This document shows positions 2,758 through 51,370 of a stretch of 64,000 nucleotides of DNA, one piece after another. Position numbers and translations under genes: made by a program. Location of the stretch: contig JAPPED010000008.1 in the NCBI GenBank assembly GCA_028824295.1, positions 1 through 64,000 on the forward strand, given 5' to 3'. The DNA is from Rhodospirillales bacterium. Lineage in GTDB: Bacteria > Pseudomonadota > Alphaproteobacteria > TMED109. The number at the start of each line of letters is the position of its first letter. Position 1 is the stretch's first letter. The notes below the pieces were generated by a model. It had not been told where the DNA came from. It did no database searches and saw only the letters and a list, made by a program, of their open reading frames with translations.

Positions 2758-4236
2758 ATGAACGACCTCCCAGGAATTCAACGCCACCGGACGGCAATGC
2801 GTCGCTCTGATTTGTCGCGGCCGGTGAAACTGGCGATGGCAGATGGGGTACTCGAAACCTCTCGCTCCTTCTTCGACTACGGTTGCGGCCATGGTAGTGA
2901 CGTCGAGACCCTGAATTTGTTGGGATTTGAATGCGCGGGCTGGGATCCCGTGCACCGCCCTAGCACACCGATGCGTTCGTCAGCGATTGTGAACCTGGGG
3001 TACGTGATCAATGTCATTGAAGATCCTCGGGAACGCGAAGAGACAGTGCGGAGGGCATTTGGCCTTGCCGAGGAGACGTTGGTCGTCAGCGCCCGCCTTC
3101 ACGATGAGGCGCGGAGAGTGCGGCAGTCGACGGGCTACGCGGACGGATTTCTGACGGGACAGGGAACCTTCCAGAAGTTCTACGACCAGAACGAACTCAA
3201 GACATGGATCGACACAACACTTGGAGTCTTGTCGGTTCCTGCGGGGCCCGGAGTCTTTTATGTATTCCGCGACGATACTGCTCGAACGAGCTTCTTGGCA
3301 CACCGCCACCGACGTCGGGTGGTGGCGCCGAGAATCAGGCGTTCCGAAGCGCTTCTCGCTGAGCATCGAGAAAAGCTAGAGCCCCTAATGGAATTCTTCG
3401 CCGAGCGGGGGCGGCTTCCTGCCGTGGGGGAACTGAAGGGCGGAGAGCAGGGCATTGTGGACGTCTTCGGAAGCCTGAAGCGGGCTTGGCGGACGGTCGT
3501 GCGCGCGACGGGTGATGAAGAGTGGCTGGCGATCGAACAGCAACGCTCGACGGAGCTGCTCATCTTCCTGGGACTCTCTCGCTTTGAGGGGCGCCCCAAA
3601 TTTTCGGGCCTGCCGGCAGCACTGCGGCACGATGTGCGAAGCTTCTTCGGCACCTATAGGGAGGCCTGCGCCGACGCCGACGACCTCCTGTTTTCCATCG
3701 GGCGCGACGAGGTTCGGAAAGGCGCTCTGGACGCCTCACTTATCGGCAAGCGACTGCCGTCAGCACTCTACATGCACGAGAGTGCTCTCGCAGCGCTGTC
3801 GCCTCAACTCCAACTTCTGGAAGGGTGCGCACGAGCGTTGATTGGTCGGGTGGAGGGAGCCAATTTGGTCAAGCTCCATCGTGACGAGCCCAAGGTGTCC
3901 TATCTGAGCTATCCGGACTTCGAGACGGACCCGCATCCGGCACTCGCCCACTCGCTTTCGGTCCACCTGCAGACGTTTCGCGTTCGGGAGAGGGAGTTCG
4001 ACCCTCATCGAAATCCGCCGATCCTGCATCGCAAAGAGGCGTTTCTCGAAGCTGGACATCCCTTCTATGCGAAATTCGCCCGCCTTACTCGCATCGAAGA
4101 GGAGAAAGGACTCTACGATGACACAACGATGATCGGGCGGAGAGATGCTTGGAACACGCTATTGGCGAGAAATGGGCTCTACTTGAGGGGGCATCGCCTT
4201 CTGGCCCTCAAGACGGTAGTTCGGGATAGCGCTTGA
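2758..4236 (+). CDS. DNA phosphorothioation-associated putative methyltransferase
   Basis: This 492-aa protein resembles the putative methyltransferase family that accompanies dnd phosphorothioation genes (TIGR04096 type). The N-terminus carries a SAM-binding glycine loop, DYGCGHGSD (about 40-48), after a conserved lead-in with HRTAM and SRPVKLAM. An NLGYVINVIED segment (about 80-90) fits the motif that follows the cofactor site. The long C-terminal half is family-specific and of unknown function. The substrate is unknown; the family is defined by co-occurrence with Dnd. It is separated from dndBCDE by 12 kb and lies right after the integrase with a 247-bp gap, so it probably has its own promoter. 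Family assignment is from memory of sequence patterns. Confidence 0.82.
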   Translation: MNDLPGIQRHRTAMRRSDLSRPVKLAMADGVLETSRSFFDYGCGHGSDVETLNLLGFECAGWDPVHRPSTPMRSSAIVNLGYVINVIEDPREREETVRRAFGLAEETLVVSARLHDEARRVRQSTGYADGFLTGQGTFQKFYDQNELKTWIDTTLGVLSVPAGPGVFYVFRDDTARTSFLAHRHRRRVVAPRIRRSEALLAEHREKLEPLMEFFAERGRLPAVGELKGGEQGIVDVFGSLKRAWRTVVRATGDEEWLAIEQQRSTELLIFLGLSRFEGRPKFSGLPAALRHDVRSFFGTYREACADADDLLFSIGRDEVRKGALDASLIGKRLPSALYMHESALAALSPQLQLLEGCARALIGRVEGANLVKLHRDEPKVSYLSYPDFETDPHPALAHSLSVHLQTFRVREREFDPHRNPPILHRKEAFLEAGHPFYAKFARLTRIEEEKGLYDDTTMIGRRDAWNTLLARNGLYLRGHRLLALKTVVRDSA

Positions 4237-4428: not shown

Positions 4429-5424
4429 ATGTCGGATGTCAATTCGCAAGCTTCAGCGGTCCTTCAGCTTGGAGAACTACGCAATTTGTTGGAAAGTAGC
4501 CGGCTGCATTTTGGCGCCCTTCAGGAAGGTCATGTGAAGGTCAAATACCGCGCCTTGGATCCGATTTGGAGAAACAACACTGCTGACTCGGGTGGCATGA
4601 TTCCGCTGCGAGAGCATGTAAAACGCATGTGCACTGTTGCCAACTATCTGTCGCATCTTGGCACGGCAAATGAGTTACAGACAATTGCAGAGAGTTTGCA
4701 CTTGGCCGCGTCATTAGATGATCTCTTCGCCGATACAGATTTGGATGGTAGCAGCCTCTATTGTAGGCCTGCGGCAGACTTCGAGGAAGCCAACAGCGAA
4801 GTCGCGGCTAAGTATATTGCAAGCGTCATTGTTTTCAACTTTGTATGGATCGCCTATGAGGCAGCTGTCGAAGTAGCAAGCACGCGCGCTGAAAATAAGA
4901 AACGCTTAGGTAAGGGAGCCCGTGGTCGTGACATACTCTTGCGTATAATGGGTGACAAGTGTTTTCCATATCTCCGTGAATCTGTTATCGAAGCGATCAA
5001 TCTGAGCGCAAGTAGCGCGATAGAGCACAATAATGATGAGATGCTACGCCTCTTTTCGGTTAGGGCTACCGCGGCAATAGCAGCCGAACATCTTCGTTGT
5101 TTTCGCAATGCGGTGACCCATGGTACTGTCAAGCCAGATCCGGAAGATTGGGGAGACGAATCGCGATACTGCGCCGATGAAGATCCAGCCCTTCGCCAAT
5201 TCCATGTCAACATTCGCATCACATTGATCTTAATTCAGTTGATAATTCGAAATCAGTTAGACCCAAATGACGAAATTGCAGTATGGCAGTTCAGCCCGGA
5301 GCTATATGAGTTTCACTTACACGACGAGCCCGACGCACTGCTGTTGACGCAGCTGCATTGCGAATTACCGGAACAAGACATGCAGGAGTTACCTTTAGGG
5401 TCCTCGAATTCAGTTAGTGATTAG
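4429..5424 (+). CDS. Hypothetical protein with HEPN-like RNxxxH motif
   Basis: This 331-aa protein is not recognised as a named family. The predicted sequence is mostly alpha-helical and contains FRNAVTHG (about 225-232), which matches the RNxxxH signature of HEPN domains, many of which are RNases in toxin and phage-defence systems. That function is an inference from a short motif. The region is visibly richer in A+T than the dnd or tra genes, with frequent ATT, AAT and TTG codons, suggesting separate acquisition. The start ATG at 4429 has an AGGAT stretch just upstream. It sits alone between the Dnd-associated methyltransferase and the CBS/HEPN gene, with gaps of 192 bp and 304 bp. Confidence 0.6.
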   Translation: MSDVNSQASAVLQLGELRNLLESSRLHFGALQEGHVKVKYRALDPIWRNNTADSGGMIPLREHVKRMCTVANYLSHLGTANELQTIAESLHLAASLDDLFADTDLDGSSLYCRPAADFEEANSEVAAKYIASVIVFNFVWIAYEAAVEVASTRAENKKRLGKGARGRDILLRIMGDKCFPYLRESVIEAINLSASSAIEHNNDEMLRLFSVRATAAIAAEHLRCFRNAVTHGTVKPDPEDWGDESRYCADEDPALRQFHVNIRITLILIQLIIRNQLDPNDEIAVWQFSPELYEFHLHDEPDALLLTQLHCELPEQDMQELPLGSSNSVSD

Positions 5425-5728
5425 GGGAAGAACAACGTGGCGAGCCAGATGCGATCTGGCTGGAGGCTCTTGATGTTTGCCAGTCCTGGCAGGCCCAAAA
5501 ACCGGCACCCCAACTGGCTAGATTCGCTAGAGTTTTAGGCAATGTGGCTACGTCGTATGCGGCAAGCATACGGGAGTCAAAGTGCAAATTCCGGGTTGTT
5601 TACAGGCTCATAATTCCGTTTGAATTGCTCTGCCGCGTCCGGCGGTTTCAATGATCATCTTGCAAGATCGTAGTGTATGCTCTGCGCGGGCTTCCGGCGC
5701 CACAAGCAGCCGTTCCGAGATTGTTTCT
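5425..5728. other. Non-coding gap with a 7-bp hairpin
   Basis: I see no gene in this 304-bp gap. It holds one clear inverted repeat, CGTATGC-GGCAA-GCATACG at 5554-5572. This lacks a following T-run, so it is more likely an operator or structural site than an intrinsic terminator. A frame upstream of the CBS gene is open from 5651, but its N-terminal 26 codons look unlike protein sequence and are excluded. Confidence 0.4.
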
Positions 5729-6736
5729 ATGTCTGAATCGCATAACCAAGGCGTTGCTTGGCTTCAGAACCTAGCCAAGCGACTCCAAGACGAGTTGGAC
5801 GCTGGAGCTGCTCCCCAACCTGAAACGCTCACAGTACGTCAATTCCTCGCAAATTTTGGCTACGCGCGGCGCCGAGGCAGAGTTGTGGGTGAGATCCGAG
5901 AAAATCTGGCATTCTATGGGCTCCAAGCCTCGCCTGATTTCGAGTTGCAGTACATCGACAGCCCAATCACGGTTGAACTTAAAGTCGATATCACGGAAAC
6001 GGAGGACAACAGGTTAGAGAATGATCCCACGGTGCGGGTAGGTATTCTCGATGCGGCGCATAATTCGCCCGTCCGCGTCGCACCTGATGATCTGCTCGTC
6101 AAAGCGACAACACTAATGCAAATGGAAGACTATTCACAGCTTCCGGTGATGACGACTGACCGGACTGTGAAGGGGATCGTGAGCTGGCAATCTATTGGTG
6201 AAGCTTACGCTCGAGGGAGTTTTCCCAAGACGGTTAAGGAGTGCATGGAAGAAGCGTACGAAGTTGATGAGAACATGCCTCTGGCCTCCGCCGCCAACGT
6301 AATATGTGACCAAGGGTACGTCCTTGTTCGAGGCGGAACCGACGATAGGATTACAGGGATCGTAACCGCCGTGGATTTAGCCCATCAGTTCAAACAGGGC
6401 GCACACCCATTCTTGCTAATTGGCGAGATTGAACATCATTTGCGTAATTTGGTTCGACGCAAATTTACTGTTGAGGAATTGGATGGTGCGTCGGACGGCA
6501 GCAAGGAAGTTCGTGGACCTGATGATCTAACTTTCGGCGGTTATTGTCGTCTTCTCGAAAAACCGGAAGCGTGGGCGAAGTTGGAGCTGAACGTCGACCG
6601 CAAGGCGTTTATTGATCTTCTGCAGTCTGTTCGCAGCGTTAGGAACGATATAATGCACTTTACTCCTGATGATCACGATCCTTCAGACATCATGCGCCTG
6701 GAGCGAATGGCACAATTCTTGCGTAAATTGGGCTAG
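5729..6736 (+). CDS. CBS-pair protein with C-terminal HEPN-like domain
   Basis: The product (335 aa from ATG 5729) has a helical N-terminal region (about 1-80), a tandem CBS pair (about 112-222) and a C-terminal helical domain ending in VRSVRNDIMHF. CBS pairs bind adenine nucleotides or similar ligands and act as sensors. The RNDIMH stretch matches the RNxxxH active site of HEPN nucleases. A ligand-gated RNase is therefore a reasonable inference, but no partner or substrate is shown. An earlier ATG at 5651 is open in frame but adds an unlikely low-complexity leader. Base composition resembles the preceding HEPN-like gene. It converges with the minus-strand restriction-like operon, leaving 33 bp between the stops. 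Confidence 0.68.
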   Translation: MSESHNQGVAWLQNLAKRLQDELDAGAAPQPETLTVRQFLANFGYARRRGRVVGEIRENLAFYGLQASPDFELQYIDSPITVELKVDITETEDNRLENDPTVRVGILDAAHNSPVRVAPDDLLVKATTLMQMEDYSQLPVMTTDRTVKGIVSWQSIGEAYARGSFPKTVKECMEEAYEVDENMPLASAANVICDQGYVLVRGGTDDRITGIVTAVDLAHQFKQGAHPFLLIGEIEHHLRNLVRRKFTVEELDGASDGSKEVRGPDDLTFGGYCRLLEKPEAWAKLELNVDRKAFIDLLQSVRSVRNDIMHFTPDDHDPSDIMRLERMAQFLRKLG

Positions 6737-6769: not shown

Positions 6770-7270
6770 TCATTTGACCTCATGTGTCGAACTCGGCGGT
6801 GCGCTCGGTAGTAACTCGTTGACCTTTCTTTGAAAGACTCTCAGGAACACATCCAACGTCCTAGGCTGGTCGCCATCAAACCAGTCTTGGAGGACCTCGT
6901 AGCCTCCGTACGCGTATCGGTTGAATTCTCGCACTCCTTCTTCGCTAAGAAAATTCTGGGCGTCCCTGCTGATCAACTTGGCGATCACCGAATGCACCTC
7001 TTTCTTGTCCTGCATGGTAATCCCAAGCTTCCGAAGCTCACTTATCAGAAAAAGCGCAACGAGCAGCCGGCCCCTAGCCTTGTAGCGCTCCGGGAAATAC
7101 GACACTAGCTCTTCTGTCTCGTCCTGTCGCAAATCCTCCTTCCTGCCTTCACAGAGTCCGGCGATAAAGCAAAAATAGAATGCGTCAAAACCAATCGAGA
7201 ACGATTTTTCATCGCGAAGAGGCTTGAACCACCAGTTCCAAGCGCGCTCTCCGACTCTGAACGGTAGCAC
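6770..7270 (-). CDS. Hypothetical protein, last gene of Dnd-linked ATPase operon
   Basis: This 166-aa protein is not recognised. It starts with GTG at 7270, sharing one base with the TAG stop of the upstream SMC-like ATPase gene (TAGTG), so it is almost certainly co-translated with it. It is rich in aromatic residues near the N-terminus (WNWWF, FYFCF) and mostly helical; there is no signal peptide or clear membrane segment. Strict coupling suggests a subunit or regulator of the ATPase/helicase complex. One possibility is a Dnd-system-associated small protein of the kind that recurs beside dnd operons, but I see no motif that proves it. Confidence 0.6.
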   Translation of the reverse strand: MLPFRVGERAWNWWFKPLRDEKSFSIGFDAFYFCFIAGLCEGRKEDLRQDETEELVSYFPERYKARGRLLVALFLISELRKLGITMQDKKEVHSVIAKLISRDAQNFLSEEGVREFNRYAYGGYEVLQDWFDGDQPRTLDVFLRVFQRKVNELLPSAPPSSTHEVK

Positions 7271-9249
7271 TAATCTGGCTCCTCTGAAGAGATTTGGAAC
7301 GCATGGAAGAAATCCTCACCACCTACCAGCATCCCGTCCGCTGTTTCAGCACATAGCTCTGTCTTCCGTGCCATTTCGATCAGCCCGGTAGGACCCTTAC
7401 GAAAGAGCGTCACGAACTGGATCTTTTCTGGACTGGCTTGCTGCAATGGGGCTACGAACTGATCACGTTCCGAAGATATCGTGAACGCAATAAACTGCCC
7501 CGTCAGCTTCGGGATCAGTTCACCGATTTTCGGCCGGATTGCTAAGTCGATTGAGCCTGCGGGACTGTCCACAACGAATGGGAGGGCGTGCTCCGACCTG
7601 TTGAATAGCGTTGCTAGAAATGCCCATGCCACCGAGAGCGTCTCCCCAACGCTACCGCCCTCTTGCCCGGCCAACATTAGGCATTTTTCGATACGCTCGA
7701 TCTCAATAGTATTGTCCGGCATCAGTTCTGTGATGCGCGCATTCGCCTCGTCACATATTTCGCGCGTAATTGCATCGCGGGCCCTTCGGTACGCATCTTC
7801 GAGAATGGAGACTAGGACGTCGCGTTTGTCACGCTGGTCAATCGTGTCCGTAATTTCGGCAACCTTCCGTTCTTGAACTTCTATTCGCTCCCTAATGACG
7901 GCGATCCCGCACGTCTCAGCGTCCGCCCTCGCCGTATCGGGACTCTCGTATCGTTGAAGACGGGCCTCAATCGCCTTGAGGCGTTCCTCTAGTTTCGAAA
8001 CTTCCTCTTGAACGCGGGCAACAGTCGGGTCGGCCTCATTGGCGCGGAGTCGTAGATTCTCCACGTCATTTCGCGCGGCTGTCGCACAGCGGACGCTTTC
8101 AGCCAAAGCGTCCATCTTCCTGCCAAGTTCCTGCGCCGCCGCATCCAGAGACTCTCCCACTGCGTCTTGTATCGCGCTCTTCGTTGCATTCAGAAGCGCG
8201 ACGTCGTCGGATGCCAGATACTGCGTTGATCGCCTTCGGATTATGTCACGCATTTCGTCGTCAATCGGTCGCCCACAGACGCACTCCTCTTCGTCTGCCA
8301 GCTCCTCAAAGAACTCTCGTGCCGCGCTTTCGGGAAGCTTCACTCGATCAAGTCCCGACTTCAGATCCCAAAGATCTCGGGCGAAAACGTGGGACAGTGC
8401 GTGGGGGTCACGCATGGTTTCAAGCGCCTCGCGGGCGGCTTCAAGAGAAGCGGATGACAGCGTCCTGGCTTTTTCTTCCCTTTCGCGCAAATCCGAAGCG
8501 AGTTGGGAGTGTTCATCGATCCTCAGCTGATAGGCGTTCCTCCGATCGGTCAGTTCTGCCTCAATCTTGCGTTTTTCGCCAAGGCAGTACTCTCGTTCCT
8601 TAATCAACTTTGCTAACCGCTTTTCGAGGAGCGCAAGCCTGTTTCTGCGGCGGGAGAGACCGCGATCATCCTTCGCCCCTGCGTCCTTCGCCCGTTGTTC
8701 CCAGTGAGATTTGACCTTGTCTCGGAGCATCAGGAACGAATTGATCTGAAATAGGTTCTCGACGACTGTTTCCGCATCGGTGAGTTCGCGATTCAGGAGG
8801 CTTTGTGCGAGTTCACCGTCAAATATGAAGAAATTGACGAAGTCCTCGTTCATGAAGCGTCGGAAGTCTGGCGGCGGTTTGAAATCATGACGCAATCCTC
8901 CGCCGGTATTGGTGCTCCAGGACACTTGGGCGTTCTCAAAGTCGAATTCGATCCGGATCGTGGCTCTGCGATCGTTCAGTAGGAGGCGTACTTCAAAAGT
9001 TCCGACACTTGTGGTGCTGTCCTTTTTCCGAAATTCTCCAATGCTATTTGTACCCGACTCAATGGTGCGCCGCGAACCGGAGAGGGCCGCGCGCAAGAGA
9101 TTCAATGTCGTCGTCTTGCCCGTTCCGTTCGGCATCTGAATGAGCGTGACGGGATTGATTTCGTTCGTGTCGGCCGAGAAATCAATGTCGTGATCTGGAC
9201 ATCGGAGGCCCTCCGCCTTCCAGCCCAGTATGCGCATAGTGGCGGGCAT
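7270..9249 (-). CDS. SMC/RecF-type ATPase resembling DndD (Dnd-linked)
   Basis: This 659-aa protein has the split-ATPase layout of SMC/Rad50-like proteins. Walker A is PNGTGKTT (about 40-47), with FFIFDGE nearby as in DndD. Long coiled coils follow, with ECVCGRPI near the middle resembling half of a zinc hook. A signature-like GSVGETLSVAWAF and Walker B-like LPFVVDSPAGSID lie near the C-terminus. It is distinct from the canonical DndD at 16465-18459, so this locus has two related ATPases. Start and stop are coupled: the upstream 71-aa gene overlaps as TGATG and the downstream 166-aa gene as TAGTG. Next to a helicase it probably forms a DNA-sensing or processing complex, inferred to be the restriction arm of the Dnd system. 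A Lamassu-type SMC role is an alternative. Confidence 0.75.
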   Translation of the reverse strand: MPATMRILGWKAEGLRCPDHDIDFSADTNEINPVTLIQMPNGTGKTTTLNLLRAALSGSRRTIESGTNSIGEFRKKDSTTSVGTFEVRLLLNDRRATIRIEFDFENAQVSWSTNTGGGLRHDFKPPPDFRRFMNEDFVNFFIFDGELAQSLLNRELTDAETVVENLFQINSFLMLRDKVKSHWEQRAKDAGAKDDRGLSRRRNRLALLEKRLAKLIKEREYCLGEKRKIEAELTDRRNAYQLRIDEHSQLASDLREREEKARTLSSASLEAAREALETMRDPHALSHVFARDLWDLKSGLDRVKLPESAAREFFEELADEEECVCGRPIDDEMRDIIRRRSTQYLASDDVALLNATKSAIQDAVGESLDAAAQELGRKMDALAESVRCATAARNDVENLRLRANEADPTVARVQEEVSKLEERLKAIEARLQRYESPDTARADAETCGIAVIRERIEVQERKVAEITDTIDQRDKRDVLVSILEDAYRRARDAITREICDEANARITELMPDNTIEIERIEKCLMLAGQEGGSVGETLSVAWAFLATLFNRSEHALPFVVDSPAGSIDLAIRPKIGELIPKLTGQFIAFTISSERDQFVAPLQQASPEKIQFVTLFRKGPTGLIEMARKTELCAETADGMLVGGEDFFHAFQISSEEPD

Positions 9250-9464
9250 CAGCGGTTGCTCGCGGTGCGACGGTAATTTGGTAGTTCGGTCCCGTTGAAG
9301 AGCGAATCGAGATGGCGCGCATCCTCGTCCTGGTCGTCAGACAGTTCGGTTCGGCTGTTCACGACCTCCAGCCATTTGGTGATGCGTTCGACGAGTGTCG
9401 CTGGCTGGCCAGCGTTCTGGACGGCCACCCGGACAGCTTCAGCCACGTTGTGGTCGAGCCTCAT
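9249..9464 (-). CDS. Small hypothetical protein coupled to PLD-helicase
   Basis: This 71-aa protein has no recognisable domain. It is acidic in its C-terminal half and predicted helical at the N-terminus. Its 5' end overlaps the helicase gene by 26 bp, and its TGA overlaps the ATG of the downstream ATPase gene. Such tight packing makes it likely to be real and co-translated, possibly as a linker or regulatory subunit between helicase and ATPase. That role is inferred only from position. Confidence 0.55.
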   Translation of the reverse strand: MRLDHNVAEAVRVAVQNAGQPATLVERITKWLEVVNSRTELSDDQDEDARHLDSLFNGTELPNYRRTASNR

Positions 9465-11382
9465 TTTGTTCCTCCCTCAGTTCCGACAGTTCCGACAACC
9501 AGTCGCGCCGCAGTTCATCTGCATTGGGCTCGGCTGGGTCCGCATCGGCGTCGCGTTCCCGGACGAAATCGACGATATTGGCGATCTTTGCCGGATTGTT
9601 GGGGTCGGTGCGCAGGCACCGCCCGATCCGTTGAATCGTTTCCAGCCGGGCTCGGGCAGAAGCAAAGAGAATAACGGAGTTCAGGGATTTGATATCGATC
9701 CCCTCGGAGAGGCGATGGCAGGTGACGAGACACTCGAGCTCCCCAACCGCGAAACGCCGCAGCGTTTCCGACTCCTCGCCGGTGAAATAGGGATGAAAGT
9801 CCGCATGATGGGAGTGAACGATGTCCAGGACGCTCTGTCCGTACTCCACGGTCTCCACGAAGATGATGCAGCGCTTCAGGATGTCGGGACGTTCCGCAAT
9901 GAAACGCGAAAACACGGGGAGCTTCGCTGGTGACGTCTTGTAGACCCGTGCGATCTCGATCCAGACTTCCTCATCAGACATTGGGTTGTCGGCTTCACGC
10001 CGCGCCGCTTGCTTCCTGAACACCGCGCTGATCCGCTCCCGGTCGCCGTCAGTCGGTATGTAGGTCAGGGCGAAATAGTGAAACGGCGCAAGGATGCCGC
10101 CGCGAATGGCGCCATCTAGTCCGAAACTGCATTCCGTGAATTCTTCCCCAATGTGCTGGGCGATGAACGCATTCCCGTCCTCGTCGTAGTCGCGTTCCGG
10201 TGTAGCACTGAGTCCGAGCCGGTACCGGATAGGCTCCGAGAGCCCCTCCAATCTTTCGCGGTTCGAGGGGCTTCCAAGGCGGTGGACCTCATCGTGAATC
10301 AGCACGGTTCGTGCGGCTTCCTTGGTCGAAAGGCTGCGGACGGCTGAGGATAGGGGATCGCGGGAGCGCCCGCCCTGTCGAGAAACCAGGAGTACTGCAT
10401 TCTTGTTGTCCAGAGAGAAGCTCTGGACCTCCTTCCTGTCGTCGTAGTCCCTGTAGATCTCAGGCGGTTTCGGCAGGGAGTGTCGGAAACGGAGTAGATC
10501 CGCATACCACTGGTTCAATAGGTCGTTGCCGTCCATCGTGACGATCACGGTGTCGATGTCGCCCCGCATGAAAAGTGCGCGGATGATCGCAATCGCCGTA
10601 CGGGTCTTTCCCGTACCGGTCGCCATGTTGAGAACGCCGCGCTCGAGCTTCAGAAATACGTCGAGCGCGCTTTGTTGATGCGTCCATAGGTGCGCTTCGT
10701 CCCGCTGGGCATGAGGCTGCGCCTCGCGCGCGCGGCAGATCCGGATCAGCTTGCGCTTTACCGCCTCGGGAAATTCGTAGACATCGACCCCCTGGTCCGT
10801 GCCATCCCAGATCGCCGTAAAGTGTGTCTGCTTGCTCTTTGCCCGAACGGGGCTTTCCCAGGATGTGTATACATCAACGCATTCGCGGTTGTTCTCCAGG
10901 GCGTAGCGGCTTTCGTTGGAGGATCCGGTAAAGGCAACGTAATCGTCGCCGTCAAGGAAGATGCCGATCTTCTCGTGGTAGATGCCGGTTCCTGTCTTGG
11001 GCACGGCGATGCGAATGTCTAGACGCCCCAGGTCAAGCAGCAGCCCAAGTCGCGTCACCCCGTCGCCCACGCCGTCCGCGAACTGCTCGTTGAGAATGGC
11101 GTCGAGCCGCGCACCGCAGACGTCTCGCTTGCTGATACCGCGCTCGATGGCGTGAAGATCGGGCTCCGTGAGTTCGACCGAGGTGACGAGCCGAATGCTG
11201 CCTCCGCTCTTGATGAATTCGCCCAAAGGAGATCCGAATGCCTCGAGGATCGAACTCGAGAAATAGCCGACTGCACGCCAATAGTCAGTGGCCACCCGCA
11301 AGGATGGTCGGAACAGGTCTGCCGCAAGGTCGTCGTAACCGGTGCGATAGTCGACCTTGTACGGGATGTCGCGTAGGGTCAT
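9439..11382 (-). CDS. PLD-domain superfamily 2 helicase, candidate Dnd-linked restriction protein
   Basis: This 647-aa fusion starts with a phospholipase D-like nuclease domain: H136-x-K138 in YHEKIGIF followed by FTGSSNES. It continues as a superfamily 2 helicase, with Walker A ATGTGKT (about 254-260), a DEVH box in LIHDEVHRLG, SATPERD, and motif VI around QRIGRCLR. PLD-helicases cut or remodel DNA in several defence systems, and members are annotated as restriction enzymes of DNA phosphorothioation systems (TIGR04095 type, from memory). It is the first gene of the minus-strand operon 11382-6770, preceded by GTGAGG. With no DndFGH recognised in the window, this operon is the best candidate for cleaving unmodified DNA. 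Activity is inferred. Confidence 0.8.
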   Translation of the reverse strand: MTLRDIPYKVDYRTGYDDLAADLFRPSLRVATDYWRAVGYFSSSILEAFGSPLGEFIKSGGSIRLVTSVELTEPDLHAIERGISKRDVCGARLDAILNEQFADGVGDGVTRLGLLLDLGRLDIRIAVPKTGTGIYHEKIGIFLDGDDYVAFTGSSNESRYALENNRECVDVYTSWESPVRAKSKQTHFTAIWDGTDQGVDVYEFPEAVKRKLIRICRAREAQPHAQRDEAHLWTHQQSALDVFLKLERGVLNMATGTGKTRTAIAIIRALFMRGDIDTVIVTMDGNDLLNQWYADLLRFRHSLPKPPEIYRDYDDRKEVQSFSLDNKNAVLLVSRQGGRSRDPLSSAVRSLSTKEAARTVLIHDEVHRLGSPSNRERLEGLSEPIRYRLGLSATPERDYDEDGNAFIAQHIGEEFTECSFGLDGAIRGGILAPFHYFALTYIPTDGDRERISAVFRKQAARREADNPMSDEEVWIEIARVYKTSPAKLPVFSRFIAERPDILKRCIIFVETVEYGQSVLDIVHSHHADFHPYFTGEESETLRRFAVGELECLVTCHRLSEGIDIKSLNSVILFASARARLETIQRIGRCLRTDPNNPAKIANIVDFVRERDADADPAEPNADELRRDWLSELSELREEQNEARPQRG

Positions 11383-14806: not shown

Positions 14807-15964
14807 TCAGCGAAGGCCGTCTATGCGCCGGGATACGCTCCCCCAGTCTACCGCGGGGGTCATGTGGCACCAGGAGATCCTGACAGCGCCCTCGATGACC
14901 TGCTGCGGCTGCCGCATCGCTTTCAGCACATGGCTCGGCTCATAGCTCTGCGAGGTGCAGGCGGAGCCGTTCGAGATGGCAATAAGGTCCTTGAGCGCAA
15001 CCATCAGCGCCTCGGCGTCCACGCCTGTGACCGCGAGGTTGACGATGCCCGGCATCGCGAGGTCCTGATCTCCGACGAGTATCGGTTCGAGATCGGCGAA
15101 GGCGTCCAGGAGAGATTCCCGAACGGCGAGGCAGGCGCTGCGTCGGGCCCCGTGGTCCCGCTCCGCCATCTCGGCTGCCACCCCCAGCCCCGCGACCAGC
15201 GGTACCGCGAGCGTTCCGTGCCGGAGTCCTCGCTCCTGCCCACCTCCGTAGTGGACGGGAGACAGCGGCGGTTTCCGAAAACCGCGCCGGCGCGCGACCA
15301 GCGCTCCGATACCGACGGGACCGTAGATTTTGTGGGAGCTGATGCTGATGAGGTCGACGCGCGGGTTGCGGAGTGCCGACAGTTCCTTGCCGAACCCTTG
15401 CGCGGCGTCGACGTGGAACCAGGCCTCGTGATCTGCAAGTAGTGCCGCGATTTCGTCGATAGGTTGGCAGATTCCGGTTTCGTTGTTGGTCTGCATCACC
15501 GAGACCAACAGGGTATCCGACCGAACCGCATCAGCGATCGCGTCGGGCGAGACGGCACCTGTCGCGTCCGGGTCGACCAGCGTCACGTTGAATCCGCGCG
15601 TCCTCAAATATTCAATCGGCTCCAGGACGGCCTTGTGCTCGATAGCTGTTGAGACCACATGACGACGTTTGGTTTCTTCGCCTTGTCCGGCAAGCCCTAG
15701 AATGGCGATGTTGTTGCTTTCCGTCGCCCCGCTCGTGAAGACCACTTCATCGGCACGCGAATCGACAACGGATGCCACCTGCGCTCGTGCCCGCTCCGCC
15801 AGTTTCTTCGCGCTCAGGCCGTACCCGTGGGTCCGGCTGCCCGCGTTGCCAGGTTCCTCCCGCCAAATGCGTGACATCTCGTCGAGTACTGCAGGTTCGA
15901 TGGGACTGGTGGCGGCGCAGTCCAGGTAGACGGGCCCGTCGGTGCTCGGGTTCAAACGGTTCAT
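14807..15964 (-). CDS. dndA: Cysteine desulfurase DndA
   Basis: This 385-aa NifS/IscS-type, PLP-dependent cysteine desulfurase supplies sulfur for DNA phosphorothioation. The PLP lysine is K212 in SSHKIYGP, the upstream aldimine-pocket histidine lies in TAIEHKAV, and the persulfide cysteine is C336 in SNGSACTSQSYEPSHVL. Its position as the last gene of the dndB-C-D-E operon, 30 bp after dndE, identifies it as DndA rather than a housekeeping IscS. In Streptomyces dndA is divergent; here it is operonic. It converges with the RelA/SpoT gene across 32 bp. All catalytic residues are intact. Confidence 0.92.
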   Translation of the reverse strand: MNRLNPSTDGPVYLDCAATSPIEPAVLDEMSRIWREEPGNAGSRTHGYGLSAKKLAERARAQVASVVDSRADEVVFTSGATESNNIAILGLAGQGEETKRRHVVSTAIEHKAVLEPIEYLRTRGFNVTLVDPDATGAVSPDAIADAVRSDTLLVSVMQTNNETGICQPIDEIAALLADHEAWFHVDAAQGFGKELSALRNPRVDLISISSHKIYGPVGIGALVARRRGFRKPPLSPVHYGGGQERGLRHGTLAVPLVAGLGVAAEMAERDHGARRSACLAVRESLLDAFADLEPILVGDQDLAMPGIVNLAVTGVDAEALMVALKDLIAISNGSACTSQSYEPSHVLKAMRQPQQVIEGAVRISWCHMTPAVDWGSVSRRIDGLR

Positions 15965-16464: not shown

Positions 16465-18459
16465 CTATGCCCTCGCGAGCTCGCCAAAATACCCGTCCGC
16501 AATCTTCGTGCTGCCGGTCGCATCATCATAGGCGAGGTGGTAGCGGCGTCCGACGTAGGGGAGCAATTCGGTCAGGTAGGAGCCGGCAATCTCCTCGTCG
16601 GTGGAAAGCAGCAACACTTGATGGCTGGCGAACGGAAAGTAACGCTTCACGACGTGCATGCGATGATCCGAGTCGAGGCGGCCTAGAGGCGTGTCGATGG
16701 CGGCTGGCAATACTCTTCCGGATGCCTTGGCTAGCCCCCACAACAGGGCGATCGCGAGGAGTTGCCTCTCGCCGGCTGACAGTCGTTCGGCGCCCAGTGA
16801 CCTTCCATCCTTGGAATACAGGGTGAGCGCAAAGCTCTCCGGGTCGATTTCGAGCCGGGAAATCAGGGAGGCCTTGCGCAAGAGTTGAAGGTAGCTTTCA
16901 AGAACGAGGTCCGAGATTCGTCGGACATGCTGCTCGATCACGGCGGAACGGAAGCGGCGCAATGTCGCTCTTACGCGCCCAGCGTGACGCAGGATCCGGG
17001 TGCGGTCATGGCGCCTGTCAGCCGCTTTGACGTCAGCCTCGACGATTCGGGACAGGGCCTGCTCACACCTCTCGGATTCGCGGGACAGCTTCTCCAGTTC
17101 CTCGCCCATGCTCGCGAATTGGGCCTCCAGTCGGTCAATATCTGCGCGGAGGCGGTCACGTTCCCGTGCAAGTTCGGAAACTTCATCGCTTCCGGGAATG
17201 CTGGAGTGCTTCAGTCGGGCACTTTCCATGCGAGCTTCAGCGACCGCACGCCGCTCCTGTGTGCGGCTGAGCAACCGGAGTAGGGCAGTAAGCTCGCCAC
17301 CGAGCAGGGCTGAAAGATCAATTCGGGCCTCGCGACCAAGATCCACAACGGGCTCGTGTTTCCCGGACGTAGCGCGGCGCCGCTCGCGGTCCCGTGTCAG
17401 GTACGCGGAGATTACGTCAACCACATGGGCGTCAACTGCCTCATCACCCAGCTGATCGAGAAGGGCTGCGTCACGATCTTCAATGATGCGGGCGAGGTCA
17501 TGCTCACGACGGACCTCTACCTCCTTTTGGTCCTGCGTTCGAACGGCATTCAGGAGATCGCGGACCAGCAACATAGGCAGCTCTCCGGACGCAAGCTCCG
17601 TCAGGCGGTCCGTGCTCTCGCCGAAGGCGAATTCTGCGTCAGCTTTCTCTCGCTCGATGACCGTGCGCTGCTCGAATAGGTCACCACCAAGATTGCGGAA
17701 CTGCTCCTCGACGTTGACGAGCTTCTTCCGAAGCGGATCAATTTGCGTCGTCCTGAGTGCGGCGCGTTCCTGGGTTAGGTCGCTGGCGCGGGCATGCAAG
17801 TCCTTCAGTTCCCGCTCCGCTCTTTCAATATCGTCCCGGGCAGGGTCCGATCGGTCCTCAGTCCGCTTCCTCCGCGTGTACGTATGCAGGTCCTGGTCCA
17901 GCTGGTCGACGATGTCGAGACCCAGAAGATTGCGGATCGCGGTATGAATCAATCGACGCGAATTGTCCTGAGATGCGTATTCCTCGACCTGTTCGCCGTC
18001 GAACAGGAACAGGCTGGCAATATTGGGTGGGATCAAGTCCTCCACTTCGGCGAGCCAGTTCTCGGAGAGTGCCGCGTCAGTACGCCGGTTCTTGAGCACT
18101 TGAAAATATTCGCGGCAGCCGCTCTTGCCGAGCGTCCAGGAGCGGTGAAGGCGGTAGCGATCCTCCTTGCCATCGATAGTGTGCCGGAACGCGATCTCGA
18201 CCGCTGCTTCGCGTACCCCGGACGTTCGGTGGAGGCTCCGCGAAAGGTATTCCCGATATGACAACCCGTTCCGATTCGAGATTCTCGCTGCCGATCCGTA
18301 GAGGCACAGCTGGATGGCATCCAGTAGCGTCGTCTTCCCGTGGCCATTCAAGCCGCCGAACAGAATGATCGGCTGGTCGGACGATGGCGGCGTCAGGGTT
18401 ACTTTCTGGCGTTCCGCGTAAAGCCCGAAGTTGTGCAGGACCAGTTCATCGAGAATCAT
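16465..18459 (-). CDS. dndD: DNA sulfur modification protein DndD (SMC-like ATPase)
   Basis: This 664-aa ABC/SMC-type ATPase is needed for sulfur incorporation, probably opening or nicking DNA. It has Walker A GGLNGHGKTT (35-44), the DndD hallmark LFLFDGEQVEEYA (about 170), long central coiled coils, the ABC signature LSAGERQLLAIALLWGLA, and Walker B AAIDTPLGRLD. It overlaps the end of dndC by 14 bp and precedes dndE by 2 bp. Length and motif order are normal for DndD. It differs from the paralogous ATPase at 7270-9249, which lacks this exact signature and carries a CxCG hook-like motif. Confidence 0.93.
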   Translation of the reverse strand: MILDELVLHNFGLYAERQKVTLTPPSSDQPIILFGGLNGHGKTTLLDAIQLCLYGSAARISNRNGLSYREYLSRSLHRTSGVREAAVEIAFRHTIDGKEDRYRLHRSWTLGKSGCREYFQVLKNRRTDAALSENWLAEVEDLIPPNIASLFLFDGEQVEEYASQDNSRRLIHTAIRNLLGLDIVDQLDQDLHTYTRRKRTEDRSDPARDDIERAERELKDLHARASDLTQERAALRTTQIDPLRKKLVNVEEQFRNLGGDLFEQRTVIEREKADAEFAFGESTDRLTELASGELPMLLVRDLLNAVRTQDQKEVEVRREHDLARIIEDRDAALLDQLGDEAVDAHVVDVISAYLTRDRERRRATSGKHEPVVDLGREARIDLSALLGGELTALLRLLSRTQERRAVAEARMESARLKHSSIPGSDEVSELARERDRLRADIDRLEAQFASMGEELEKLSRESERCEQALSRIVEADVKAADRRHDRTRILRHAGRVRATLRRFRSAVIEQHVRRISDLVLESYLQLLRKASLISRLEIDPESFALTLYSKDGRSLGAERLSAGERQLLAIALLWGLAKASGRVLPAAIDTPLGRLDSDHRMHVVKRYFPFASHQVLLLSTDEEIAGSYLTELLPYVGRRYHLAYDDATGSTKIADGYFGELARA

Positions 18460-20008
18460 GGTGTGCGTCCGCTTTGGCTGCCGGCAAATCCAGTGACTCT
18501 TGGACTAACGGATCGTGGTTTAGGCCATCCGAGACACGCCTGCGGGCGTCATCAAGCGCCGTTCGCTGTGCCTTCGCCCGCGCAACCGCGTCGTCCTCGT
18601 CGTCGTAGAAATGGCGATGAAACGCGCGCTCGATTGCGTCGAAGAGCCCGAAGCGGCGCAGCATGGACTTGTATTTTTTCTCTACGGAAAGGAGCTCCCG
18701 CGTGAGCTGATAGTGCAGCTCGTCGCCGTCGCAAACTTCTGCAAGTGCCGACATCTCTGATCGCCCGAAAATCTGATTGTCGTCAAGACTGCGGCCGGGA
18801 TAACGTTGGCCGGTTTCATCCTCGTAGATGCGCGGCAGGTCGTCCTCAATCTCGTGTTTTTCGACGACCCAGATGCGCCGGATCTCCTCGAGTTCGGCGA
18901 GCGTGATCAGCGCTACGTCGCGCACCTCCGCAGGCCCGTTTTCTCGAATGTGCCGCTGGGTTGCGAGAACCTTCCTGAGCCAGTGTGATCGCACGTCCTG
19001 CTTGTAGGGCCCCGGGATCGGGCGGTTCTGATACAGCTGAACGGCGCCCGTCAGGCGCCGGAAATCCCGGAGGTGGCGATCCGTATCGACGGTCCGGGGC
19101 GGGTCGAGGTCGTTGCGCAACTCCAGCAGCGGGAGCATCCACTCCTTCTCCTCGTCGTTCTGGATCATCGCCTGCATCGACTTGTCCTTTTCGACCAGCG
19201 TGCACACCCAGCATCCGAAGCGGCTGTCCCCGCAGCTCGGCGTGGAGGTGTCCACGACCAGTGGGCATTCGCCATCGTCCGAGGCGCCCTGATACATGGT
19301 GAGAAGATCTTTGTTCCTGTATCCCCACGGGTTGGCGACCTGCATGAGGAACAGCCAGACGTCGTCGTTGCTCCAGCTTTCGAGGGGGGTGTAGACGAAG
19401 GAGTTGGGAAGTTTGCCGTTGGGACTCAGTTTTTCGCGTACGCGACGTTCCTCGTATTTCGTCATCAAAGCGGCCCGCTTGGTGCTCTCCGCCTTCCGAG
19501 TGCCAAGGATCAGGATTGCCTCGCCATGCCGCTGTACGATCGACGTGATGAACTGCGTGGACGGCATGATCTTGAGGCGCTCGGTGCACCAGCGAAATTT
19601 GGGGCGTGGTGCCGGATAACCGCGCCCGATCAGGTTGACCCAGAACGTGTTGGTGGTCTCGGGGGTGAGGCGGTGAGCCTTGATGGGGAGGTCTTGGGCT
19701 TCGGCCGCCGAGTTGATCTTTTCAAGAGAGCGAGACACCCAGAGGGCGACGATGGGATTCTCGACGAGCGTGTCGGTGCTGATGACATGTACCGGCTTGA
19801 CCCGCCGATCCTTCGGAAGCGCAGCCAGCGCAAGCCAGACAAGCTGCAATACGGCAGTCGAATCCTTGCCGCCGCTGTAACCGACCACCCAGGGAATTTG
19901 ATCGCTTTCGTAGAGCGCACAGACCTCGTCGAGGAGCGATCCAATAGAGCCCTTGAAGCCGATGTCATCGAAGGCGGAGGCCCGCCGCCGTGCTTTAGGT
20001 CTCGGCAT
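18446..20008 (-). CDS. dndC: DNA sulfur modification protein DndC (PAPS reductase-like)
   Basis: This 520-aa protein of the adenine nucleotide alpha hydrolase/PAPS reductase family activates the DNA phosphate with ATP and carries an iron-sulfur cluster. The PP-loop is VVGYSGGKDSTAV (SGGKDS at 45-50). Cysteines in SCGDSRFGCWVCT plus an upstream cysteine in RWCTERLK fit the cluster ligands. ATG 20008 is preferred over the upstream TTG at 20038, because the family N-terminus starts near here. The gene then overlaps dndB by 14 bp, as dndC overlaps dndD. The C-terminal region is rich in acidic and arginine residues, as usual. Confidence 0.93.
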   Translation of the reverse strand: MPRPKARRRASAFDDIGFKGSIGSLLDEVCALYESDQIPWVVGYSGGKDSTAVLQLVWLALAALPKDRRVKPVHVISTDTLVENPIVALWVSRSLEKINSAAEAQDLPIKAHRLTPETTNTFWVNLIGRGYPAPRPKFRWCTERLKIMPSTQFITSIVQRHGEAILILGTRKAESTKRAALMTKYEERRVREKLSPNGKLPNSFVYTPLESWSNDDVWLFLMQVANPWGYRNKDLLTMYQGASDDGECPLVVDTSTPSCGDSRFGCWVCTLVEKDKSMQAMIQNDEEKEWMLPLLELRNDLDPPRTVDTDRHLRDFRRLTGAVQLYQNRPIPGPYKQDVRSHWLRKVLATQRHIRENGPAEVRDVALITLAELEEIRRIWVVEKHEIEDDLPRIYEDETGQRYPGRSLDDNQIFGRSEMSALAEVCDGDELHYQLTRELLSVEKKYKSMLRRFGLFDAIERAFHRHFYDDEDDAVARAKAQRTALDDARRRVSDGLNHDPLVQESLDLPAAKADAHHDSR

Positions 20009-21098
20009 CGAGATCGCGCCGCCGGAAGGCGTCTTCAACCCGTTGCTCCTCGGGCGAGAGCGGCAGCCCTAGTTGGCACTTGATTGCGTTGGTTGTCAGC
20101 GTGACATTCTGTTGCGATTTCTGCACGCGACCACCAAGCAAGACGCGGCCTTCCCACAGTTCGCTGTTGGCCCGGCGCCAGTCAATGTCGGCAATCTTCG
20201 CTATCTCCGCTAGCCAGCGTTCCGGATACTGTCGGAACAGAGCGTTTCCCGCCCGGGCGAGTGCCTGGAGCACGACGCCGTTCGTGTGAACGTAATCGGA
20301 CCGGACCTCCCCGGAAGTGATCCGACCTGACCTGACGTACTCCCATTCGGTCATGTGGCCGGCGACCGCCTCCCAGAACTGGAGGGCCAGGTCCGCCGTC
20401 GTCTCAGGTTCGGCGATGTCCAGATTCTTGAGGAATTCCCCCGTGGCGTGATAGATCGCACTGAGTGTGAACAGGCGTCGTGAACGCTTCGACAGCGTGG
20501 TCTTTTCCATTTCCACGACATCCTTGAATACCGGTGACCTTGCGATCAGATCCTTGGCAAGATTCGCGGTAGCGTCGCGGTAGTCGTACAGGAGGCTGAG
20601 GGACGTGGAGGGACGGATCGCGTACCGGTTGAGGTCTGCAAACATTTGTTGGCAGCGTTGAAGCCCGGCGTCATGGAAGAAGACGACCGCAATCGTTTCC
20701 TCACCCAATTCCGGTCGCTGGTGGAGCGCCATCTCGATAGCCGCTCTCCTGTGCTGGCCGTCATTGATGATGAACCTGGCTTCCATCGGTATGTGCAGCC
20801 GCCCATTGCGGCTCGCTCCCCCGGCCGTTGACAGCTCCTCAAACTCCACATCACCGTCAATAGACGCCGTGATTGCGGAAAAGACGTAGTTGTCGTCGTT
20901 CTCGGTGATGTAGCGCGACATTTCGGGAACGCGTGCCTTGTTGAGATGCCGTTGTGCCCGGAGTTCCGGGACCAGTTCGTCCTCGTCAAAGAGGAAGAGC
21001 TTAGGTATGAGCCGCAGCGGGCACATAGAGGCGTAGTACTCTCGCCCTGCCTGAATTCCGCGAATCGCGGGAAATACGTACTCGAACTCAGTACTCAT
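19995..21098 (-). CDS. dndB: DNA sulfur modification protein DndB (DGQHR regulator)
   Basis: This 367-aa protein is the DndB regulator, which represses dnd transcription and tunes modification level. The DGQHR signature is at about 113-117 in INDGQHRRAAIEMAL, and FADLNRYAIRPSTSL further on is also typical. The start is placed at ATG 21098, not the upstream frame opening at 21158, because a strong GGAAGGGG ribosome site lies 4 nt before it and the family N-terminus (FPAIRGIQAG) begins right after. It is the first gene of the dndBCDE-dndA operon. A weak promoter lies at 21132-21159. Confidence 0.92.
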   Translation of the reverse strand: MSTEFEYVFPAIRGIQAGREYYASMCPLRLIPKLFLFDEDELVPELRAQRHLNKARVPEMSRYITENDDNYVFSAITASIDGDVEFEELSTAGGASRNGRLHIPMEARFIINDGQHRRAAIEMALHQRPELGEETIAVVFFHDAGLQRCQQMFADLNRYAIRPSTSLSLLYDYRDATANLAKDLIARSPVFKDVVEMEKTTLSKRSRRLFTLSAIYHATGEFLKNLDIAEPETTADLALQFWEAVAGHMTEWEYVRSGRITSGEVRSDYVHTNGVVLQALARAGNALFRQYPERWLAEIAKIADIDWRRANSELWEGRVLLGGRVQKSQQNVTLTTNAIKCQLGLPLSPEEQRVEDAFRRRDLDAET

Positions 21099-21131
21099 TA
21101 GCCCCTTCCATATGGTTGGAGATGCAAACAC

Positions 21132-21159
21132 GATATACATACCAAACAAACAGCGCAAA
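21132..21159 (-). promoter_or_regulatory. Possible dnd operon promoter
   Basis: On the minus strand, TTTGCG at 21159-21154 and TATATC at 21137-21132 are separated by 16 bp, 33 bp before the dndB start codon. The surrounding 40 bp are AT-richer than the neighbourhood. The match to sigma70 elements is only partial. The rest of 21160-21381 contains no gene. Confidence 0.3.
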
Positions 21160-45992: not shown

Positions 45993-46979
45993 ATGGCCCG
46001 CAAATCACCCGGAAAGTCCCGCCGCAAAGGCATTTCACTGGTACAGATTTTCAAGCGTTTCCCGGACGACGCGACCGCCGAAGCATGGTTCATCAAGCGG
46101 CGTTGGCCTAAAGAGATTGCCTGCCCGCATTGTGGCTCCATGAACGTTCAGACCGGCGCAAAGCACAAGACCATGCCCTACCGCTGCCGCGAGAAGGAAT
46201 GCGCCAAGCGGTTCAGTGCGAAGACCGGCACGGTCATGGAAGGTTCCAAGCTCGGTTTCCAGACTTGGATGATCGCCACCTACCTGCTGTCCACGTCGTT
46301 GACGTCGGTATCCAGCATGAAGTTGCACCGCGACATGAACATCAACCAGCGGAGCGCATGGTTCCTCGCGCACCGGCTCCGCACCGCGCTGACCGAAGAC
46401 GGAACCGAATTCAGCGGCCCCGTGGAAGCCGACGAGATGTATGTTGGCGGTATCCGAAAGAACATGAGCAACCGGAAGCGGAAGGAACTGGCTGGCACTG
46501 GCCGGGGCGGTTCCGACAAGGCCGCGGTCGTTGGCGTGAAGGATCGGAAGACCAATGAAGTCCGCGCCCGCCACGTTCCGGCTACCGACTATCGGAACGT
46601 TCCCGGCTTCGTCGCAGTCAACACCAAGCCCGGTTCCAAGGTCTACACGGACGACGCACCGATCTACGACATTCTGGAAGCGTGGTACGACCACGAAACA
46701 GTCAAGCACTCGGTATCCGAGTACGTCCGGGGCCAAGTCCACACCAACGAAATGGAATCCGTCTGGAGCATGTTCAAGCGAGCGCACAAGGGGACGTTCC
46801 ACAAGATGTCCCCGAAGCACCTGCAGCGGTACATCGACGAATTCTCCACGCGCCACAATCTGCGGGAGCGTGACACCATCGAGATCATGGCGGCCGTCAC
46901 GACCGGCGGCGTTGGCAAGCGGCTGAAGTACGCCGACCTGATCGCCCACAATGGGCTGGACTCGGGAGCAAGAAAATGA
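45993..46979 (+). CDS. tnp: IS1595-family transposase
   Basis: This 328-aa transposase has an N-terminal zinc ribbon (CPHCGSMNVQ...YRCREKECAKRFS, about 48-72). An ISXO2-like DDE/N domain follows, with ADEMYVGG (about 147-154), VYTDDAPIY (about 220) and HTNEMESVWSMFKRAHKGT near 248-266. The catalytic acidic residues and the N/E position are present. ATG 45993 follows AGGAGAGACC. The stop overlaps the first cargo gene as ATGA, so cargo is co-expressed with the transposase. Confidence 0.94.
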   Translation: MARKSPGKSRRKGISLVQIFKRFPDDATAEAWFIKRRWPKEIACPHCGSMNVQTGAKHKTMPYRCREKECAKRFSAKTGTVMEGSKLGFQTWMIATYLLSTSLTSVSSMKLHRDMNINQRSAWFLAHRLRTALTEDGTEFSGPVEADEMYVGGIRKNMSNRKRKELAGTGRGGSDKAAVVGVKDRKTNEVRARHVPATDYRNVPGFVAVNTKPGSKVYTDDAPIYDILEAWYDHETVKHSVSEYVRGQVHTNEMESVWSMFKRAHKGTFHKMSPKHLQRYIDEFSTRHNLRERDTIEIMAAVTTGGVGKRLKYADLIAHNGLDSGARK

Positions 46980-47377
46980 CCGACGGCGAGAGAATCGAAC
47001 GCGAACGGGAGTGGGTGAAGGCACGGTACGCCTGCACTGTCGATGCGGCATTCAAGACGTTGGTTGCTGTCATTGAATCTGACGTTCAGTCATTCAACAG
47101 ATTGTCTAGCAATGACGATTGCGAAGTGAAGCACGTCGATTACCGGACAGTGACCTTTAGCCGGGGAAGTCGCGTAACGGCTGTGTCTATCTCTGGGCAA
47201 ACAATCGAAGTCAGGCCCATGCGCAGCAACGCCATCCTGAAGGTGATCCATATCACGCCGAAATGGAACGAAGAATCCATGTCCTGTGATTTAGTAATTG
47301 ACGGAAAGGCCATGTCCATGCACCGAGCCAGCCAAAGGGCAATCGGGGACATTCTGTTTCCGCGGGGGGACACTTGA
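46976..47377 (+). CDS. IS cargo protein, unknown (133 aa)
   Basis: This soluble 133-aa protein has a charged helical N-terminus (GERIEREREWVKARY) and a beta-rich remainder. No family recognised. It is coupled to the transposase stop (ATGA) and to the next gene (TTGA). It is less GC-rich than the transposase. Conserved linkage to the transposase would show whether it aids or regulates transposition. Confidence 0.6.
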   Translation: MTDGERIEREREWVKARYACTVDAAFKTLVAVIESDVQSFNRLSSNDDCEVKHVDYRTVTFSRGSRVTAVSISGQTIEVRPMRSNAILKVIHITPKWNEESMSCDLVIDGKAMSMHRASQRAIGDILFPRGDT

Positions 47378-47712
47378 TTAGATCCTCCCCCAGGTTCGTG
47401 ATTTCAGCACTCATCATGCTGTCTGCGCCCTTCGCTTATGGCCAGGAGCCGGAGGGTGTTTTCAGCGATAGCAGCACGCGTGAACTATGCCTTGAGTTAG
47501 CTATTTGGACGCTTCCAAAAATTGGTGAGAAATATGGCGAAGATTCACACGGCTCGATTCCCGCTCACATATTCCGGCCAGCAGCACTGAGTTGTTTTCT
47601 TACCATCGACAATGCCGGATATTTGATCGTCTATCCAAATAACTCCGATGAAGGAATCATCGTCAAATACCAAGTGGACAAATTCAGTACGTTCGAGACG
47701 GATTTCGATTGA
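47374..47712 (+). CDS. IS cargo protein, secreted (112 aa)
   Basis: This 112-aa protein has an N-terminal signal peptide (FVISALIMLSAPFAYGQ, about 8-24) and a short periplasmic domain with two cysteines. No family recognised. TTG start at 47374 overlaps the preceding TGA. Periplasmic location is inferred from the signal sequence. Confidence 0.5.
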   Translation: MIRSSPRFVISALIMLSAPFAYGQEPEGVFSDSSTRELCLELAIWTLPKIGEKYGEDSHGSIPAHIFRPAALSCFLTIDNAGYLIVYPNNSDEGIIVKYQVDKFSTFETDFD

Positions 47713-47761
47713 AGTGCCTTCCGTCAAGATCCCTGCCGCCCATCGCAATGATGAGTAAGGC

Positions 47762-47863
47762 ATGGCAGACGCGCTCACTGTCGCCATCGGTATCTGGGTC
47801 GCGATCGTGATCCTGTACGCCCTGTTCGAGATGACGTGCGCCGTGTTCTTTACCCGCCGCTAA
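47762..47863 (+). CDS. IS cargo micro-protein, one membrane segment (33 aa)
   Basis: This 33-codon ORF starts ATG at 47762 and is nearly all a hydrophobic helix (VAIGIWVAIVILYALFEM), ending CAVFFTRR. The ribosome site (TAAGG) is too close to be good, so expression is uncertain. It could be a small membrane toxin or just an ORF. Confidence 0.35.
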   Translation: MADALTVAIGIWVAIVILYALFEMTCAVFFTRR

Positions 47864-47880
47864 TTCTGGGAGACAACAAC

Positions 47881-48054
47881 ATGACTACCGAAGACCGAAA
47901 ACCGCCCGAGGAGGTCAAGATCGTACGCCCTGACTACCAGCCAAGCCGGGCGGAACTGAACGAAGATATGCGGGTTGATGCGTCGTTCGATGAGGCCGTG
48001 GACGCGCTCGCGAAGCCGGTGAGAATCCGGTACGTCAAAGAACCTACTTCCTGA
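47881..48054 (+). CDS. IS cargo protein, unknown (57 aa)
   Basis: This 57-aa, charged, probably soluble protein starts ATG 47881 after GGGAGACAAC. No family recognised. It lies between two small membrane-segment ORFs; with the following gene it could form an antitoxin/toxin-like pair, but this is only a layout-based guess. Confidence 0.45.
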   Translation: MTTEDRKPPEEVKIVRPDYQPSRAELNEDMRVDASFDEAVDALAKPVRIRYVKEPTS

Positions 48055-48063
48055 GACCCTGAC

Positions 48064-48285
48064 ATGGAATGGTGGCAGTGCTTCGCGGGCGCGGGAGCCT
48101 TCTCTTGTCTAATTCTTCTTTTCAGGATGGTGCAAAAAGACACGCTCTATCTAGCGCAGGAAGCGAGACATGACATCGTGGGGATCGCCGGGCGCGTTGT
48201 CAGCGCGTTCGTTTTTCAATTCGTGCTGTGGGGCGTGCTATTGGGCACGCCCGTCTGGTTCGGGTACTGGTTGTTCTTCGACTAG
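48064..48285 (+). CDS. IS cargo small membrane protein (73 aa)
   Basis: This 73-aa protein has two membrane segments (about 6-20 and 42-70) split by a charged loop. The C-terminus is aromatic (GTPVWFGYWLFFD). No family recognised. It stops 7 bp before the right inverted repeat, so the cargo uses the full element. Confidence 0.5.
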   Translation: MEWWQCFAGAGAFSCLILLFRMVQKDTLYLAQEARHDIVGIAGRVVSAFVFQFVLWGVLLGTPVWFGYWLFFD

Positions 48286-48292
48286 GCAGATT

Positions 48293-48317
48293 TTCGGCAC
48301 TTTCCTACATAATCCCC
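48293..48317 (-). repeat. Right inverted repeat of IS1595-type element
   Basis: Reverse complement of the left end with one mismatch in 25 bp (position 9). It is followed directly by the second GGAGGTTA target copy at 48318-48325. Confidence 0.93.
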
Positions 48318-48375
48318 GGAGGTTACGGGAAACCGGCTCCAACAGTCATCTGGCCCTGCTTCCTCATACCATCAG

Positions 48376-49966: not shown

Positions 49967-49984
49967 CTCGCCCCGCAACCATCA

Positions 49985-51217: not shown

Positions 51218-51370
51218 CGTTCATCTCCCCGGCGGTCGGCAGCGGACGTCGGTCCGGCCCGTTCTCGCAATGCATCCCCTCGGCGACGCTCCCTGGTCGG
51301 CGCTGCCCGCAGGCGCGTCCGGTGACCGCGCAGCGGGTTGGACGGCGTCAGCATGTGTGCGCGCTGCCGC

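Follow-up and report, generated by a model that had tools for sequence, protein, structure and literature searches.

A four-gene operon in a Rhodospirillales genome is an ordinary copy of the known PbeABCD anti-phage module, which shares a genomic island with a complete DndABCDE set. We are highly confident that the operon represents a PbeABCD module paired with DndABCDE, for which a phosphorothioate-guided mechanism is the most likely model. No new name is needed for the module, a kind already published in 2019.

The operon adjoining dndABCDE encodes PbeABCD

The window (the whole stretch of 64,000 nucleotides that was analysed, from contig JAPPED010000008.1) comes from an assembly that totals 3.02 Mb over 35 contigs and is 97.9% complete. 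From position 11382 to 6770 the minus strand carries four overlapping open reading frames (ORFs), adjoining dndABCDE:

9439..11382, minus strand: PbeA, 647 aa, N-terminal HKD/PLD nuclease domain fused to an SF2 (ResIII/Helicase_C) helicase
9249..9464, minus strand: PbeB, 71 aa, small protein of CxC ATPase systems (Sp-CxC)
7270..9249, minus strand: PbeC, 659 aa, CxC-clade ABC ATPase with an ECVCG hook
6770..7270, minus strand: PbeD, 166 aa, GTG start, published as clade-2 DndE

The original prediction had described a coupled operon of a PLD-helicase, a 71-aa protein, an ATPase and a 166-aa protein, and all of these ORFs were recovered at the positions given above. Coordinates and junction sequences place the overlaps along pbeA/B/C/D at 26, 1 and 1 nt, the first being that of the pbeB start with the pbeA end. 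Because neighbouring ORFs overlap in this way, the arrangement fits a single coupled operon, and its A-B-C-D gene order is that of PbeABCD. Decay or loss of function of the module is very improbable, given that the four frames are intact and overlapping and that it keeps its HKD, Walker A, DEVH and CxC residues.

The 647-aa protein matched the PADLOC PbeA model (PDLC02703) over its full length (815 bits, profile positions 1-622 of 626). Pfam searches confirmed the predicted PLD and helicase domains and thereby the domain set of PbeA, with ResIII at 2.5e-21, Helicase_C at 6.1e-9 and PLDc_2 at 5.5e-5, the last of these falling slightly under the Pfam cut-off. The HKD motif (HEK..GSSN) spans residues 136-156, and H136, K138, G153, S154 and N156 are identical in 61/61 aligned PbeA relatives, from archaea to proteobacteria. 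Between PbeA and PbeC lies a small protein of the Sp-CxC type, as in PbeABCD: the 71-aa protein matched Pfam PF20304 (Sp-CxC; 'Small protein from certain CxC ATPase-based DNA modification systems') with 43.7 bits at a cut-off of 27.5.

As published (Xiong et al. 2019, PMC6459918), pbeABCD adjoins dndCDEA; pbeA encodes PLD, ResIII and Helicase_C domains in one protein, pbeB a product of 66 aa, pbeC a protein whose N terminus carries an AAA_23 domain, and pbeD one of 152 aa. Xiong et al. also name Halorubrum trapanicum CBA1232, and on a plasmid of this strain we found dndC, dndD, dndE, a desulfurase, a helicase, a small protein, an AAA ATPase and a 153-aa protein in identical order and with similar sizes. 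The small protein is annotated there as 'CxC ATPase DNA modification system associated small protein', and PbeA shows 37% identity between the two organisms. Rhizobium plasmids show a matching gene order, and the A-B-C-D order is common to about 50 other loci.

The original prediction had suggested that the operon could be a different restriction strategy, that is, a new dnd-linked restriction module separate from PbeABCD. The dnd restriction enzyme model of NCBIfam (TIGR04095) did score far below its cut-off (154 versus 600 bits), and PbeC and PbeD had weak or no matches in the model libraries. Such a module is nevertheless extremely improbable, since PbeA matches over its full length, the Sp-CxC protein is recognised and the same order, with similar sizes, recurs in CBA1232 and at about 50 loci; as a separate kind it is ruled out by these matches. 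Because the profile comparison with PbeABCD-type modules gave such strong matches, the proposed new strategy is unsupported, and what had been predicted is the module published in 2019 (PMC6459918).

PbeC belongs to a sister clade of DndD

The ATPase had been predicted to be an SMC-like relative of DndD with a hook motif, which was borne out by a CVC at residues 323-325 (C323 and C325, within ECVCG), near the middle of the protein. Pfam AAA_23 matched PbeC above its cut-off, and the PADLOC PbeC models reached just 62 bits. The hook is CxC in 46 of 55 PbeC proteins and CxxC at about the same place in the other 9, whereas a CxC is present in the hook region of only 1/27 DndD proteins, and there in another sequence context. 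In a tree, the 55 PbeC and 28 DndD proteins fell into two perfectly separate groups (support 1.0). On the basis of these motif counts and of the tree split, the protein is, as judged from its sequence, an ABC ATPase of the CxC sister clade of DndD and no second DndD copy. We found no solved structure matching PbeC, and scans of viral contigs using PbeC and PbeD alignments yielded no relatives.

The nine PbeABCD loci with a CxxC hook in PbeC (L024, L025, L026, L028, L032, L033, L036, L049 and L050) form a subgroup in which PbeD is shorter (about 125-133 aa) and its N terminus looks more DndE-like. dndC or dndD was seen in 0/9 of the flanks examined, which often end at contig ends.

PbeD may be a remote relative of DndE

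PbeD had no match in the family-model libraries (Pfam, NCBIfam, PADLOC). An ORF directly follows pbeC in 52 of the 54 loci with a readable PbeC (mechanically called ORFs, two of them short). Profile comparison of the close PbeD set alone with DndE failed, while hhalign of 37 diverse PbeD sequences against the DndE profile gave a collinear alignment of 111 columns (probability 64%, E = 6.4e-5; PbeB as a control, E = 0.62). For the CxxC-hook subgroup only 46 N-terminal residues of PbeD aligned with DndE (probability 18%, E = 0.0013), and the actinobacterial PbeD subgroup failed against the DndE profile. Matches of the PbeD profile to designed armadillo proteins were discarded, as these are repeat proteins, only the C-terminal stretch was covered and no stretch passed alone.

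A structure model built from the 37 sequences (pLDDT 84) is nearly all-helical, with a predicted N-terminal helix pair such as a ribbon-helix-helix (RHH) unit would have. An earlier model, built from 10 sequences, was dropped for its low quality (pLDDT 54). Foldseek of the better model against the PDB returned no DndE match, though solved DndE structures exist, and comparison with viral predictions gave nothing convincing. Thus a remote relationship of PbeD to DndE is weakly supported by the profile alignment. The assignment as DndE leans on the 2024 paper (PMC10853773), which counts PbeD as the cognate DndE, of clade 2 and with two RHH units, rather than on our own results, in which the broad profile alignment weakly suggests it, narrower profiles failed and the fold search gave no match.

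The dnd genes and the absence of DndF and DndH

To the right of the pbe operon, positions 21158-14807 hold a complete dndB-dndC-dndD-dndE-dndA set, in which DndC, DndD and DndE score far over the NCBIfam cut-offs:

19995..21158, minus strand: DndB-like (DGQHR) regulator, an ORF similar to proteins encoded beside dndC at other loci
18446..20038, minus strand: DndC sulfurtransferase, TIGR03183 at 673.8 bits
16465..18459, minus strand: DndD, without a CxC hook, TIGR03185 at 578.8 bits
15995..16462, minus strand: DndE, TIGR03184 at 123.8 bits (cut-off 71.85)
14807..15964, minus strand: DndA cysteine desulfurase, TIGR03235 at 471.6 bits (cut-off 480, narrowly missed)

Neither DndF nor DndH, two of the genes by which a DndFGH module would be recognised, had a match in any of the 35 contigs (E. 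coli DndF as query; DndH model TIGR03237). TIGR03237 had also been run over 289 genomes of the class and had no match anywhere. Because no genome matched, this blank could not show absence, and the search was rerun with an E. coli record with identified DndF, DndG and DndH as positive control, in which the DndF and DndH searches both matched. The lack of DndFGH, originally claimed for the window, therefore extends to the whole assembly for DndF and DndH. The further claim that the operon stands in place of DndFGH holds insofar as it is an effector operon with a link to dnd and of a kind other than DndFGH. As a general rule replacement is doubtful, since some genomes carry both PbeABCD and DndFGH (PMC10853773) and dptF occurs beside pbe genes on plasmid pBMG4 of Priestia megaterium. 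On this plasmid (L073) the annotated dptF (DndF) adjoins dndBCDE and pbeABCD, so that both effector modules lie beside the same modification genes.

Genomic setting and neighbouring genes

Other genes noted in the window are the following:

1154-2510: tRNA-Lys (minus strand), then a tyrosine integrase (plus strand)
2758..4236, plus strand: dnd-associated putative methyltransferase, TIGR04096 at 569 bits (cut-off 150)
4429-5424, plus strand: 331-aa protein to which no family model of Pfam, NCBIfam or PADLOC matched
5651-6736, plus strand: CBS-domain protein, DS-11 homologue, NCBIfam NF053863 ('DS11_antiphage') at 329.6 versus 260 bits
11631-14774, plus strand: tight three-gene block of a GIY-YIG protein, a DGQHR/DndB-like (ParB-like) protein and a RelA/SpoT-domain protein
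48376-49461: 'restriction endonuclease associating with ARP' protein, in a second stretch of lower G+C
55493-56989: pentapeptide-FRG protein, in the same second stretch

The G+C content drops from the tRNA-Lys/integrase region to about 21.3 kb, and this region is likely the island edge. Searching the window gave no attachment-site repeat from the tRNA-Lys region, and base 1 of the window is also the start of the contig; therefore the ends of the island are not fixed. The second lower-G+C stretch (45993-59900), which also carries an IS1595-type transposase, may represent another mobile or defence region.

The DS-11 homologue comes right after the pbe operon, on the opposite strand; DS-11 is a defence system from the DefensePredictor paper (PMC13092281) that consists of a single CBS-HEPN protein. 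A relative of the 331-aa protein (81 bits) is encoded between a cysteine desulfurase gene and pbeA on a Ruegeria plasmid (L064), and because of this the protein may be a recurring dnd-pbe neighbour.

The DGQHR protein of the three-gene block is the second DndB relative of the island. DGQHR and RelA/SpoT genes also occur together behind pbeABCD in an uncultured alphaproteobacterium (L014), and two Rhizobium plasmids have RelA/SpoT-annotated genes near pbe, with no detectable similarity at E 1e-4. We regard it as very improbable that in this lineage the GIY-YIG protein, the DGQHR/ParB-like protein and the RelA/SpoT-type synthetase are working parts that couple phosphorothioate defence to an alarmone signal.

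A likely phosphorothioate-guided mechanism

In the most likely model, DndABCDE would put sulfur into the host DNA backbone and so mark self, as its gene content suggests. By the parallel with DndD/DndE and the published proposal, PbeC and PbeD could act together as a complex that scans DNA. Unmodified invading DNA would then engage PbeA, which would translocate by its SF2 motor and block replication; its HKD domain probably nicks or cuts DNA, and PbeB may serve as a small regulator or adaptor. The low PADLOC score of PbeC (62 bits), the lack of a family model for PbeD and the weak PbeD-DndE link count against the PbeABCD reading and this model. In the experiment with the archaeal homologue, pbeB, pbeC and pbeD were each essential and loss of pbeA left low-level resistance; viral DNA replication was inhibited, with no viral DNA cleavage seen, and phosphorothioated virus escaped (PMC6459918).

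The absence of viral DNA cleavage in that experiment sits badly with a nuclease role of PbeA, whereas the 2024 authors hold that cleavage belongs to the mechanism (PMC10853773), and whether PbeA cleaves DNA is disputed. The invariant HKD residues favour cutting of DNA by PbeA without proving it. Their conservation in 61 relatives is a data point for this open dispute, given that the 2019 work saw no cleavage.

Alternatively, PbeABCD could be an independent CxC-ATPase system here, with its own mark or an abortive cleavage of self DNA, that merely adjoins dnd. While dndC or dndD lies in the flanks of 33/55 PbeA loci among species genomes, 22/55 are without them, some of these flanks being cut by contig ends, and the 2024 paper (PMC10853773) makes a case for decoupling and for a suicide mode as a possibility. 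Nevertheless, dnd genes are adjacent in 9/9 of the relatives with 60-64% PbeA identity, that is, beside every relative of at least 60% identity, and the escape of phosphorothioated virus in the archaeal system also argues against independence. We therefore consider this explanation unlikely and prefer the phosphorothioate-guided pairing with DndABCDE.

Comparison with known systems

DndFGH (DptFGH) is likewise an effector module paired with dndBCDE, but has no homologous component here, DndF and DndH being absent from the genome. The CxC ABC-ATPase/clade-2 DndE systems, as which PbeABCD was re-described in 2024 in Nucleic Acids Research (NAR), occur in such tandem arrangements in 936 bacterial and 41 archaeal taxa (PMC10853773). 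They share with our operon the CxC hook ATPase, Sp-CxC, the HKD-SF2 helicase and the small protein after the ATPase. In contrast to them, phosphorothioation genes and the TIGR04096 putative methyltransferase are nearby here, and no gene was recognised as a cytosine methylase or MTaX1 (neither was searched for specifically).

The DndCDEA-PbeABCD system of Haloterrigena jeotgali A29 (PMC6459918) has the same four-gene order and the same dnd link, with no DndFGH nearby. This likeness is by published description, the sequence comparison having been made with H. trapanicum CBA1232. The system described here differs from that of A29 in that it is bacterial, has dndB and has the GIY-YIG/DGQHR/RelA-SpoT block separating pbe from dnd, while the small protein measures 71 aa (66 aa in A29) and the last small protein 166 aa (152 aa in A29).
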